Assembly: GCF_023638055.1 (NCBI RefSeq)
Contig: NZ_JAKRVY010000005.1
Coordinates: 124,001 to 188,000 of the forward strand
Direction: 5' to 3'
DNA: 64,000 nt
From: Natranaeroarchaeum aerophilus
GTDB taxonomy: Archaea; Halobacteriota; Halobacteria; Halobacteriales; Natronoarchaeaceae
A model generated the notes under the pieces. It made no database searches. It saw nothing but the letters and a program-made list of their open reading frames with translations, and was not told the origin of the DNA. Position numbers and translations under genes: made by a program. The stretch's first letter is position 1. Every line of letters begins with the position of its first letter. This document shows positions 55,184-59,352 of this stretch, one piece after another.

Positions 55184-56683
55184 ATGGCTTACGGTACGTC
55201 GCTCGATCTCCTCTCGATTCCCGGAGCGAGCAGCTACCTCTCCGCCACCGCAATAGAAGATGCACTCGAGTATTTCGACCCGGAGGTGATCTGTCTTACC
55301 GGCGAGTTCGATCCCTCGCTGTACGGTGGTGTCCGCACTGTCACGGACGTCCCGGTAATCGCCCCATCGGCAGGGATGGGAGACGTCACCCATCATCGGC
55401 GACTGGATGACGGCTCAGTTGTGGAGGCAAATACTATCGATACCCCCGGGGCGACGCACGATCTCCTGACAGTTCGAGATCGACGCGTTCTCGACGACCT
55501 TCCGGCGGAGTTCTCGGATGGCCAGGACTCGGCGGCCGACACTGCCACAGTTCTCGTCGTTCCCAATCTCGGCGTCGAGTACGATCCGACGACTCTGAGT
55601 GCTCGATTGCCGGGGATAGACGCACTGGCAGCGATCCAGGAAGCGGCTACCGGACCGTTGACCGTCCTTGCTGGCCGACAGCCTGCGAACTATCATCACG
55701 TCTGGGAGAGCGACTACGGCGCGCCCAGAGTGACTGTACACGGAATGGGGGCGGGGACGGAGAAGGAGACTGAATTGACGCTGCTTTCCTGTACGGAAAC
55801 CGGCACAGCCGCCGGCGAGTCCGTTGCGGCCGACAGCTTCGGTCTCAGTGCGATCCAGGGGATCGGATCGAAGACGGGAGAGACGCTCCGTAACCGGGGC
55901 ATTACGACCCGAACCGATCTCGTCGAAACGTCGATCTCCGCGCTATCCGAACTTCCCGGTGTCGGTCGGGAGTCGGCCGAGACGATGCACGCCCACGCGG
56001 ACGTGATCGACACCGGCGATCCGTTACGGTTGACAAACGAGTCCCTCCCTGCGGCGCGAAACGGCCGGTCACCGATCTGTCTCGACATCGAGACAGACGG
56101 GCTCTCGCCGACCGTGGTCTGGCAGTTCGGAATCTACAATCCCGAGACTGACGAGTACACCGCGTTCGTCGAGGACGAGACGCCGACCGAGCCCGGCCGG
56201 AACGTCCGGCGGTTCTGTGACTACCTCTTTGGCACTCACGCAGATCGGACGCTTCTGACGTGGAACGGCGACGGCTTCGATTATCCAGTCATCGAGCGGT
56301 TTCTCCGCCAGCATGCCCCCGAGTACGTCGACGCGTGGGACGACCTCTGGAAACACGATCTCTACTCGTGGGCGGTCAGAGAGAGCAACGCGCTCTTGCC
56401 TGGACGGACAAACAAACTCGACGATGTGGCCCGCGCGCTCGGGTACGAGGACGCGGAGACGGGACTGACAGGTGCACAGACGGCCGCAGCATACCAGCGA
56501 TTCATGCGCACGCCCGACGATCCGGCCGCGAAACCCGACTGGGAGCGCCACCGACGGTACTGCGAAGACGACTGCCGAGCGCTCTGGCACGTCTGGCAGG
56601 CGATCGAAGACGCCAGACGCCGCGACCCGAGCGACAGTGCGACCGACACCGGCGGCCAGCAGACCGGACTCACTGAGTTCTAA
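55184..56683 (+). CDS. RNase H-fold 3'-5' exonuclease, MrfB/YprB-like, with PIP-like C-terminus
   Basis: This 499-residue protein has an N-terminal domain of unknown type (1-215), a helix-hairpin-helix region (about 218-275: IQGIGSKTGETLRNRGI ... LSELPGVGRESAETM), and a DEDD exonuclease domain (296-475). The acidic residues are Asp301 and Glu303 (ICLDIETDGL), Asp366 (WNGDGFDYPVI) and Asp462/463 with Tyr459 (RRYCEDDCRALW). The last seven residues are QTGLTEF, which fits the PCNA-binding PIP box (QxxLxxF). Its stop overlaps the helicase start (TAATG). The pair resembles B. subtilis MrfB/MrfA, which repair mitomycin damage. The MAYGTSLDLL start follows a TATA-like TTTAAT near 55148. Confidence 0.87.
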   Translation: MAYGTSLDLLSIPGASSYLSATAIEDALEYFDPEVICLTGEFDPSLYGGVRTVTDVPVIAPSAGMGDVTHHRRLDDGSVVEANTIDTPGATHDLLTVRDRRVLDDLPAEFSDGQDSAADTATVLVVPNLGVEYDPTTLSARLPGIDALAAIQEAATGPLTVLAGRQPANYHHVWESDYGAPRVTVHGMGAGTEKETELTLLSCTETGTAAGESVAADSFGLSAIQGIGSKTGETLRNRGITTRTDLVETSISALSELPGVGRESAETMHAHADVIDTGDPLRLTNESLPAARNGRSPICLDIETDGLSPTVVWQFGIYNPETDEYTAFVEDETPTEPGRNVRRFCDYLFGTHADRTLLTWNGDGFDYPVIERFLRQHAPEYVDAWDDLWKHDLYSWAVRESNALLPGRTNKLDDVARALGYEDAETGLTGAQTAAAYQRFMRTPDDPAAKPDWERHRRYCEDDCRALWHVWQAIEDARRRDPSDSATDTGGQQTGLTEF

Positions 56684-59352
56684 TGACTAGCGACCCATCC
56701 ACAACGACCATCGATATCGAGCGCCTGATCGAGACGTTCCCGCGAGAGGGTGTCTCACTCGACTCGCAGTCTATCACGTACCGGCCACTTCCGCCCCGTG
56801 AGGCCGATACAGTCCCGGCAAGCGAGGTACTCCGCCCCGGTCTCTCCGACCGATACCCCTACGAGCCGTTCAGTCATCAGGCGGACGCGCTCTCCCTGCT
56901 CGACAGCGGTGAGAACGTCACCGTCGCCACATCAACGTCATCGGGAAAGACCGACATCTACGCGCTGCAGATCGCCCGGAACCTACTGGATGCTGGCGTG
57001 ATCTCGCCCGATGGTTCTCGAACCGGTGAGGACGGCGCGACGGCACTGTGTATCTACCCGACGAAGGCGCTGGCGGCCGACCAGCACGAGGCGCTGGAGG
57101 ATCTCTACGACGAGATGGACCTCGACATCCGGATCGGGCGATACGACGGGGACACCCCGCAGGCCGACCGCCGGGAGATTCGAGGGCGGGCAGACGTGAT
57201 CCTGACGAACCCGATGGGCGTGAGCACGTATTTGCACGACCACGACCGCTGGAGCCGGTTCTACTCGGGACTCGACCTCGTAGTACTCGACGAATCCCAC
57301 ACTCATACCGGCGTGCAGGGGATGCACGTCGCCTGGATACTCCGGCGTCTTCGCCGCGTCGTCGACCACTGGGGCGGGAACCCACAGTACGTGTTGACTT
57401 CGGCAACGATCGGTAACCCTGCGGATCACTCCGAACAGCTGCTCGATGAGTCCGTGACGGTCGTCGACGAGGACGGCTCGCCACGCGGACCGCGCGACCT
57501 GTTACTGTGGAATCCACCACCGACAGATGGCGGCGATACGCACAGCGACGGGACGGTCTTTGCAGCGGACGAACCGCCGACCGCGCCGGGCGTCGACGGT
57601 GGTATCGCTTCACGGCTCCCCGCCTCGGTCGATGCACCGCGCGTCTGGAACCACCTCACCTACCACGGCGTCGACTCCCTGTTGTTCTGTCCGAGCCGAA
57701 AGCTCACCGAGATTGCAGTTCAACGGGCCAATGAGCATCGAGAGTCAGCCGGGAGCCAGTACGCGCCGCCACGGCCAGAACTTGCGGCGTACAATGCGGG
57801 GATGGGCCGGGTCACGCGTCAGGATCGGGAGGCGTCGTTCAAAGACGGCTCAATAGCTGGTCTCGCGACCACTTCTGCACTGGAACTCGGTATCGACATC
57901 GGAGACCTTGACGGCGTCGTCCTGCTCGGCTATCCAGGCCAGCGCCAGCGGTTCTGGCAGCGGATCGGCCGCGCGGGACGAGCGGGGTCCCGAAGCATCG
58001 GCGTGCTCGTGGCCGACCACCGCACTCTCGACCAGTACGTTATCGACAACCCCGAGTACCTCCTCGATACCGATGTCGAGGATGCAGTCGTGGATACCGG
58101 CAACGACGCCGTCTTCGCTCAGCATCTACTCTGTGCGGCCGACGAGATTGCCCTGGACGAGTCGGATATCGGCCCGTTCGCGGGTGAAGAGCGGCTCCGC
58201 GCTGGCGTCAGGATGTGGCGACGCACCGGCCGACTGACCGGCTATCTCGACGCTGTGGTCCATTACGCCGGTGCGCGCCGTCCGCAGACCGAGGTGAGTA
58301 TCTACGGGACCGGTGGGGACGAGTACGAACTCCGACTCGCAGATGGGGTCGACGAGTCGGCAGTCGTCGAGTTCGATGCCGAGAACGTGGCCCAAAATCG
58401 CGCGTACCGGGACTACCACGAGGGCGCAGTGCGGCTGTTCGACGGCGAGCAGTTCGAGGTCACGGGGGTCCACGACGACCGCCCCCAGCCCAGCATCGAA
58501 CTCAAACCGGTCGACCGGGAGTACTACACCCGAACGCTCACCGACGTGAACGTCGTCGATGCCGAATCCGAACAATCCCGCGAGGTCAACGGGTTTCGGC
58601 TTCACTTCGGCACCGGGACCGTCCTCGTGCATCACCACTCTTACGACCAGGTGTATATCGAGTCCAACGAGCCAAAAGAGCGGATGCTCCCGACCAACCG
58701 CCCACCAATCTCTATGGAGACACAGCTGTGCTGGGTCGAAGTCCCCGAGAACGTCGAACAGGGTCTGCTTGCGAAGTACCGCGAGTCCGGCACGGAGACA
58801 GGAGTCGATCTCGAGCGTGCGGATGCACCCCAGATCGGCTACGTCGCCGGGCTGCATGCCGCCGAGCACGCGATGATCAAGGCCGCGCCGCTCGAACTCC
58901 TGGTCGATCAGAACGACCTCGGGGGGCTCTCGACGCTCGTGCTCGACAGCCACTACGCGAGTCCCGAACACGACGAACTTGGAGCGACCGCGTCCCAGTC
59001 CATGGATGCGGTCGAAGCGGTCATCGCCAACCGGGCCGCTGAGTCGGATGGAACCGCCTCCGGCTGGTTCCTCTACGACGGCGTCGAGGGAGGGATCGGC
59101 TTCGCACGGGCAATCTACGAAGAATTCGAGACGCTGTCTGCCCACGCCCGGGATCGGCTCGAAGACTGCGAGTGTGGCCGCCCCGACGGCTGTCCAGCCT
59201 GCACGTACTCGGAGAACTGTGGGAACGACAACGCGCCGTTGCTACGCGACTCGGCCATCGACGTCTTCGAGCACTTGCTGGGCGAGCGGTCGCCTGAGGA
59301 CCTCGACGAGGGCGACGAGTCGGAGCGACGGCCCGCGCTGTTTTACGCGTGA
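56683..59352 (+). CDS. DEAD/DEAH-box helicase, MrfA/YprA-like, with C-terminal four-Cys domain
   Basis: This 889-residue helicase has Walker A TSTSSGKT (83-90), motif Ib IYPTKALAADQ, DESH as motif II (203-206), motif III SATIGNP and motif VI QRIGRAGRAGS. The MrfA-type C-terminal region (DUF1998) ends with cysteines at 829, 831, 837, 840 and 846 (CECGRPDGCPACTYSENC), which coordinate zinc or an Fe-S cluster. The start codon overlaps the nuclease stop by one base. Together they match the MrfAB helicase-nuclease pair known for nucleotide excision of mitomycin adducts. Confidence 0.92.
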   Translation: MTSDPSTTTIDIERLIETFPREGVSLDSQSITYRPLPPREADTVPASEVLRPGLSDRYPYEPFSHQADALSLLDSGENVTVATSTSSGKTDIYALQIARNLLDAGVISPDGSRTGEDGATALCIYPTKALAADQHEALEDLYDEMDLDIRIGRYDGDTPQADRREIRGRADVILTNPMGVSTYLHDHDRWSRFYSGLDLVVLDESHTHTGVQGMHVAWILRRLRRVVDHWGGNPQYVLTSATIGNPADHSEQLLDESVTVVDEDGSPRGPRDLLLWNPPPTDGGDTHSDGTVFAADEPPTAPGVDGGIASRLPASVDAPRVWNHLTYHGVDSLLFCPSRKLTEIAVQRANEHRESAGSQYAPPRPELAAYNAGMGRVTRQDREASFKDGSIAGLATTSALELGIDIGDLDGVVLLGYPGQRQRFWQRIGRAGRAGSRSIGVLVADHRTLDQYVIDNPEYLLDTDVEDAVVDTGNDAVFAQHLLCAADEIALDESDIGPFAGEERLRAGVRMWRRTGRLTGYLDAVVHYAGARRPQTEVSIYGTGGDEYELRLADGVDESAVVEFDAENVAQNRAYRDYHEGAVRLFDGEQFEVTGVHDDRPQPSIELKPVDREYYTRTLTDVNVVDAESEQSREVNGFRLHFGTGTVLVHHHSYDQVYIESNEPKERMLPTNRPPISMETQLCWVEVPENVEQGLLAKYRESGTETGVDLERADAPQIGYVAGLHAAEHAMIKAAPLELLVDQNDLGGLSTLVLDSHYASPEHDELGATASQSMDAVEAVIANRAAESDGTASGWFLYDGVEGGIGFARAIYEEFETLSAHARDRLEDCECGRPDGCPACTYSENCGNDNAPLLRDSAIDVFEHLLGERSPEDLDEGDESERRPALFYA

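Follow-up and report, generated by a model that had tools for sequence, protein, structure and literature searches.

What does a helicase gene that overlaps an exonuclease gene by a single base do in a haloarchaeon, and are the two an archaeal version of the MrfAB repair system of Bacillus? The question is raised by a stretch of 64,000 nucleotides from Natranaeroarchaeum aerophilus (assembly GCF_023638055.1, contig NZ_JAKRVY010000005.1, positions 124,001-188,000, forward strand; the window), where a nuclease gene is followed by a gene for a superfamily 2 (SF2) helicase of the MrfA/YprA family (Table 1). The label "MrfAB", given to the pair by a first-pass annotation, suits the helicase half and is not supported for the nuclease half. 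We privilege, with a probability of roughly 60%, the reading that the two haloarchaeal proteins form a helicase-exonuclease module tethered to PCNA, which follows the MrfA plan with a different nuclease and excises or processes damaged DNA. The analysis established directly how the genes are paired and inherited together, which domains and catalytic residues the proteins have, and the PCNA-interacting peptide (PIP) motif.

A conserved nuclease-helicase pair

Nuclease relatives were gathered by genome search, and the 37 haloarchaeal loci described here are those fetched with a full-length nuclease; a scan of genome contigs with the nuclease alone gave no matches. A YprA-type helicase lies directly downstream of the nuclease in all 37 loci, the exceptions in arrangement being one locus with an inserted gene and one with the helicase split over two frames. 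The helicase-plus-nuclease partnership that had been claimed as conserved, with adjacency across Halobacteria as its proposed test, holds throughout this set. The overlap of one base first noticed in the window is correct (base 56683, within TAATG), and of 36 homologous pairs 31 have the two genes no more than 23 bases apart. At L073:9682-11031 a segment of about 1.35 kb, apparently protein-coding, separates nuclease and helicase. The nuclease comes first, an order reversed relative to Bacillus.

Pfam scores together with conservation over 36 sequences rule out chance. Nuclease and helicase trees correlate at r 0.92 (permuted maximum 0.28) and have 27 of 32 splits in common. Three genomes carry the pair twice, and there every nuclease falls in a subclade that matches the one of its own helicase. 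These matched same-genome paralogues argue for inheritance of the pair as a block.

An MrfA/YprA-family helicase

SF2 DEAD/DEAH motifs are complete in the helicase, with nucleotide-binding motifs invariant in 35 homologues, and PF09369 scores 60 bits (cut-off 24.2). The MrfA-type cysteine cluster first recognised at residues 829-846 lies in this MZB match, and C829, C831, C837, C840 and C846 are invariant in 35 helicases. The top PDB sequence match is Bacillus MrfA (6znp, 1.8e-83). The comparison of structures advised at the outset gives the same answer: the AlphaFold2 model (pLDDT 80) has 6znp as its top PDB match in Foldseek (E 6.8e-59, TMt 0.73, 869 columns). By motifs, cysteine cluster, MZB domain and fold the protein is a member of the MrfA/YprA family.

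It has in common with B. subtilis MrfA/YprA (6znp) and the DUF1998/MZB helicases the SF2 core and the C-terminal Zn-binding domain. It differs from B. subtilis MrfA, to which it is about 27% identical, by being 140 residues longer, by a disordered insert around residues 283-309, by a fifth cysteine and by belonging to a separate clade. B. tequilensis MrfA aligns with it over almost its full length at 27% identity. In the helicase tree a single clade holds the haloarchaeal pair helicases; the MrfA proteins of Bacillus and of methanogens lie next to it, as do two haloarchaeal YprA proteins that are unpaired. MrfA-type relatives translocate 3'-5' on single-stranded DNA and unwind duplexes; by analogy the window helicase would be a 3'-5' single-stranded DNA translocase.

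A second, unpaired YprA-family helicase is encoded in the window's own genome (L076:10427-12943, - strand), and another lies immediately upstream of a nuclease-helicase pair elsewhere (L048:9904-12381, - strand). Since the window's genome has uvrA as well as this second YprA protein, redundancy is to be expected in single deletions.

A DEDDy exonuclease that departs from MrfB

Residues D301, E303, D366 and D463 of the nuclease are invariant when 36 homologues from haloarchaea are aligned. A fifth catalytic residue, Tyr459, lies four residues upstream of Asp463 and is a tyrosine in every homologue; all 36 also carry a detectable HHH_5 helix-hairpin-helix (HhH) domain. Foldseek searches with the AlphaFold2 model (pLDDT 88, pTM 0.85) match ExoI, TREX1 and the exonuclease domains that proofread in T7 and family B polymerases. 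The window nuclease has a DEDDy exonuclease fold downstream of HhH. A DEDD exonuclease with HhH had been proposed from the outset, with a structural model as its touchstone, and PF13482, PF14520 and the DEDD exonuclease fold of the model all bear it out. Of the residues listed then, D301, E303 and D366 stand, D463 and not D462 is the conserved aspartate, and Y459 had gone unnamed.

The simplest account would make this protein a diverged MrfB orthologue repairing mitomycin-type adducts exactly as in Bacillus. The common helicase family and the common RNase_H_2 superfamily speak for it, as does a weak match of the nuclease profile to MrfB 8un9 (E 0.022). Direct blastp between the window nuclease and Bacillus MrfB is also weak (7e-4 across 116 residues). 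The defining residue is another matter: Bacillus MrfB is a DEDDh enzyme, with His258 shown experimentally (PMC11194089), and the histidine is found in 12/12 methanogen and 14/15 Bacillales MrfB proteins, the fifteenth being unmatched by the motif pattern. No TPR family is detected in the 36 haloarchaeal nucleases, whereas the Bacillus MrfB control gives TPR matches. In the exonuclease-domain tree the haloarchaeal nucleases (36 rows) cluster with support 100/98 and join proteins in which a metallophosphoesterase (MPE) precedes HhH and DEDDy domains (100/99), away from MrfB. Constraining the tree to hold them with MrfB is not rejected (approximately unbiased test, p 0.072), and when the MPE proteins are omitted they form with MrfB one side of a branch supported at 95/89. 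The nuclease thus differs from MrfB in a defining catalytic residue, with kinship not formally rejected. The DEDDy residues, lack of TPR, tree position and a gene order opposite to that of Bacillus tell against the original identification as MrfB, and we consider orthology with Bacillus-like function unlikely.

Genomes on the methanogen side of the same phylum encode HhH-RNase_H_2 proteins with an H-N-x-x-D motif, found by phmmer with Bacillus MrfB at 62-88 bits (loci L222-L231, L236 and L237). An MrfA helicase adjoins them in 10 of 12 loci, the nuclease again coming first, and these DEDDh proteins are likely the true archaeal MrfB. Their HhH and gene order, which are common to the window nuclease, can be read in favour of the MrfB account. 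Like the window nuclease, B. subtilis MrfB/YprB has an RNase_H_2 DEDD exonuclease core and works with an MrfA helicase as its partner. Both the Bacillus and methanogen forms lack a PIP box, the Bacillus form having a C-terminal TPR, whereas the haloarchaeal protein combines DEDDy with an MPE-like N-terminus and a PIP box.

Among NCBIfam models, the HhH-exonuclease half is nearest to the TM0106 family (TIGR03491, 8e-16), in which a RecB-like nuclease is joined to HhH and RNase_H_2. The score is 58 bits against a cut-off of 97.45, with only model positions 207-458 matched: the HhH-exonuclease half aligns, and the window nuclease lacks the RecB-like N-terminal half. The two top TIGR03491 matches in the phylum sample are themselves proteins of the window family.

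The nearest tree group, the MPE-HhH-DEDDy proteins, comprises L078:9323-10765 (-), L232:8573-10018, L233:9738-11183 (-) and L234:9561-11006 (-). Domain order and DEDDy residues are as in the window nuclease, from which these proteins differ by intact MPE motifs (PF00149, 5.6e-9), no PIP box and no adjacent pair helicase. Each chain carries two nuclease-type active sites, and the genes lie on haloarchaeal replicons amid Orc1/Cdc6-like, PolB-like and SRAP genes. A 140-residue remnant of this family is present in the window's own genome (L079:8674-9096, - strand; G000:C11). The protein encoded at L235:5945-7201 (-) begins like the tail of an MPE and also has a stretch resembling phage integrase and a DEDDy exonuclease, a possible domain fusion or frameshift.

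The C-terminal PIP box

The first-pass annotation, right on the DEDD and HhH domains, missed a motif at the very end of the nuclease. All 36 homologues finish with Q-x-x-L-x-[DE] and an aromatic residue that follows either directly or after one intervening position. Q493 and L496 are invariant, and the linker ahead of them is hypervariable in length and sequence. The PIP motif is QXXhXXaa and is often C-terminal. The window sequence QTGLTEF has one aromatic residue instead of two, matching the haloarchaeal form QxxLxxFx that is the PIP box of PCNA clients in H. volcanii (PMC7776575). A strict PIP pattern, allowing up to three residues after the motif, fits 33/36 homologues, the remaining three ending in QGTLGD[IAV]Y. 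The pattern occurs in none of 15 Bacillales MrfB, 12 methanogen MrfB, 11 small HhH-RNase_H_2 proteins and 5 MPE relatives, and in 7 of about 440 other open reading frames (ORFs) of the same loci, about 1.6%.

NreA of the window's genome ends in QSQLSDF. In Haloferax volcanii, NreA carries the same type of C-terminal QxxLxxF box and acts in PCNA-dependent mitomycin repair, and removal of its PIP box phenocopies loss of NreA in this repair (PMC4929162). NreA differs from the window nuclease in belonging to an unrelated family, acting with UvrABC and having no known helicase partner. The conserved tail, its low background and the NreA parallel lead to a strong prediction that the nuclease binds PCNA through its C-terminus.

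SRAP (HMCES-like) proteins encoded near the MPE-HhH-DEDDy cluster, L078:10919-11635 (+) and L079:15086-15853 (+), have a PIP-box-like tail, QSGLGEF followed by 2-4 residues.

The N-terminal domain

The 215-residue N-terminal domain, singled out at first reading as unlike the bacterial protein, is indeed absent from MrfB. Pfam gives nothing consistent for this region in the 36 homologues. Foldseek searches of PDB and BFVD with the full nuclease model return calcineurin-like phosphoesterases among the polymerase matches, without reporting aligned query positions: SMPDL3B (probability 1.00), a COG0622 phosphoesterase (0.97), a Tupanvirus phosphoesterase (1.00), a phage SbcD (0.97) and a phage metallo-phosphatase (0.84). 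We infer that no part of the model other than its N-terminal domain could correspond to the MPE fold. In L078 and L232-L234 an intact MPE occupies the same place, ahead of HhH and DEDDy. The catalytic D-x-H, GD, GNH/D, H and GH-x-H motifs are not conserved in any of the 36 members. Structure matches and the domain order of L078 suggest that residues 1-215 are quite probably a dead MPE-like domain.

Table 1. Coordinates of the nuclease-helicase pair and its domains in the window
Feature	Position	Strand	Remarks
Nuclease gene	55184..56683	+	499 aa, stop TAA; MPE-like domain, HhH, DEDDy exonuclease, PIP box
N-terminal domain, residues 1-215	55184..55828	+	AlphaFold2 model, Foldseek matches; probable MPE-like fold without catalytic motifs
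Helix-hairpin-helix domain, residues 221-270	55844..55993	+	PF14520 (HHH_5) 5.3e-10
DEDDy exonuclease domain, residues 298-472	56075..56599	+	PF13482 (RNase_H_2) 4.9e-26; D301, E303, D366, Y459, D463
C-terminal PIP box QTGLTEF, residues 493-499	56660..56680	+	Q493, L496 invariant
TAATG stop/start overlap, nuclease/helicase	56681..56685	+	single common base, 56683
MrfA/YprA-family SF2 helicase gene	56683..59352	+	889 aa, start ATG
RecA1/DEAD domain, helicase residues 64-244	56872..57414	+	PF00270 2.2e-26; TSTSSGKT, LDESH, TSAT
RecA2/Helicase_C domain, helicase residues 331-435	57673..57987	+	PF00271 4.4e-15; QRIGRAGR
MZB (MrfA Zn-binding) domain, helicase residues 727-847	58861..59223	+	PF09369 3.6e-16; CxCx5Cx2Cx5C

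Distribution and genomic context

In a sample of 295 genomes from the phylum, the full nuclease architecture was seen in the haloarchaeal order only. One carrier is a cultured laboratory species, Halobacterium salinarum R1, which has the pair on plasmid pHS3 (OE_RS12870, OE_RS12865); Natronorubrum bangense and Haloarcula sinaiiensis are others. None of the phage records matches the nuclease. Several results weigh against a clamp-tethered repair module. The pair is patchy, being present in 35 of 98 haloarchaeal genomes, and 47 plasmid records match, 20 of them covering at least 80% of the query; a core repair pathway would not usually show either trait. The correlation between nuclease and helicase trees has no species-tree control. 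For the N-terminal domain, neither profile-profile comparison with haloarchaeal MPEs nor global alignment, judged by shuffles and by 150 ORFs that are unrelated, gives a signal.

Presence on plasmid records, the PIP box and the company of Orc1/Cdc6-like, PolB-like and SRAP genes kept by the MPE-HhH-DEDDy cousin would fit a role in replication or plasmid maintenance, in which the module works at PCNA by trimming 3' ends and restarting forks instead of excising adducts. The window pair and many others, however, lie on large chromosomal contigs, and the characterised MrfA relative works in adduct repair. In the window the pair sits between a polysaccharide flippase and a block of housekeeping genes (VOC, adk, EMC3-like), which is all that a same-genus genome has in common at this site. 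A replication or maintenance role is in our view improbable.

The patchy, mobile distribution also recalls the YprA-family helicases of DISARM, Dpd, Druantia and ARMADA, and parts of the helicase are matched by PADLOC profiles, DruE among them, as an antiviral or anti-plasmid defence pair might be. The nuclease has no PADLOC match, and the helicase counts 889 residues against the 1460-2055 positions of the matched DruE profiles. No conserved multi-gene context of the defence type (methyltransferase, PLD or Vsr nuclease) is present, and no third gene is common to more than 8 of the 37 loci, which also speaks against a wider conserved operon. Published classification moreover assigns helicases that are linked to MrfB, and those with YprA only, to a repair branch of their own. 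Defence is accordingly the explanation to which we give least credit.

Proposed role

The preferred reading of a PCNA-tethered helicase-exonuclease module has its precedent in MrfAB, which joins a helicase to a 3'-5' exonuclease (PMC11194089); mitomycin specificity and UvrABC independence come from the Bacillus literature. Enzyme activities and directions are taken by analogy from the families, and PCNA binding, complex formation and lesion type are inferred. Where there is a lesion or a stalled 3' end, the MrfA-type helicase would open the duplex and peel off the strand that is damaged or stalled. The HhH-DEDDy 3'-5' exonuclease, its obligate partner, would degrade the exposed 3' end, held by its PIP box on the PCNA clamp at forks or sites of repair synthesis, and the same clamp could afterwards serve that synthesis. 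The HhH and dead MPE-like domains may provide contacts to DNA or partners. Alongside UvrABC, the pair would probably remove or process cross-link intermediates and bulky adducts; which lesion it acts on, and in what order the steps run, are guesses.

As to origin, an MrfA-type helicase may have taken, or kept, a non-MrfB DEDDy exonuclease with a dead MPE domain and a PIP box, yielding a clamp-tethered excision machine, a tentative scenario to which we give slightly less than even odds. The MrfAB branch has been described, together with helicases that are fused to MrfB or linked to it (PMC12458937, PMC11194089); in the open-licence papers searched we found no description of a haloarchaeal version, a DEDDy partner or a PIP box.

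If this is true, the pair would correspond to bacterial MrfAB in a form coupled to PCNA, and its degenerate MPE domain would recall the MPE subunits of replicative polymerases in eukaryotes, which are inactive. Known mitomycin repair in haloarchaea involves UvrABC, Hef, Hjc, Mre11-Rad50 and NreA (PMC4929162), to which a PCNA-linked helicase-exonuclease module would add a further route. The comparison suggests that the MrfA helicase pairs with different exonucleases by lineage and raises the question of whether the helicase alone sets the choice of lesion.

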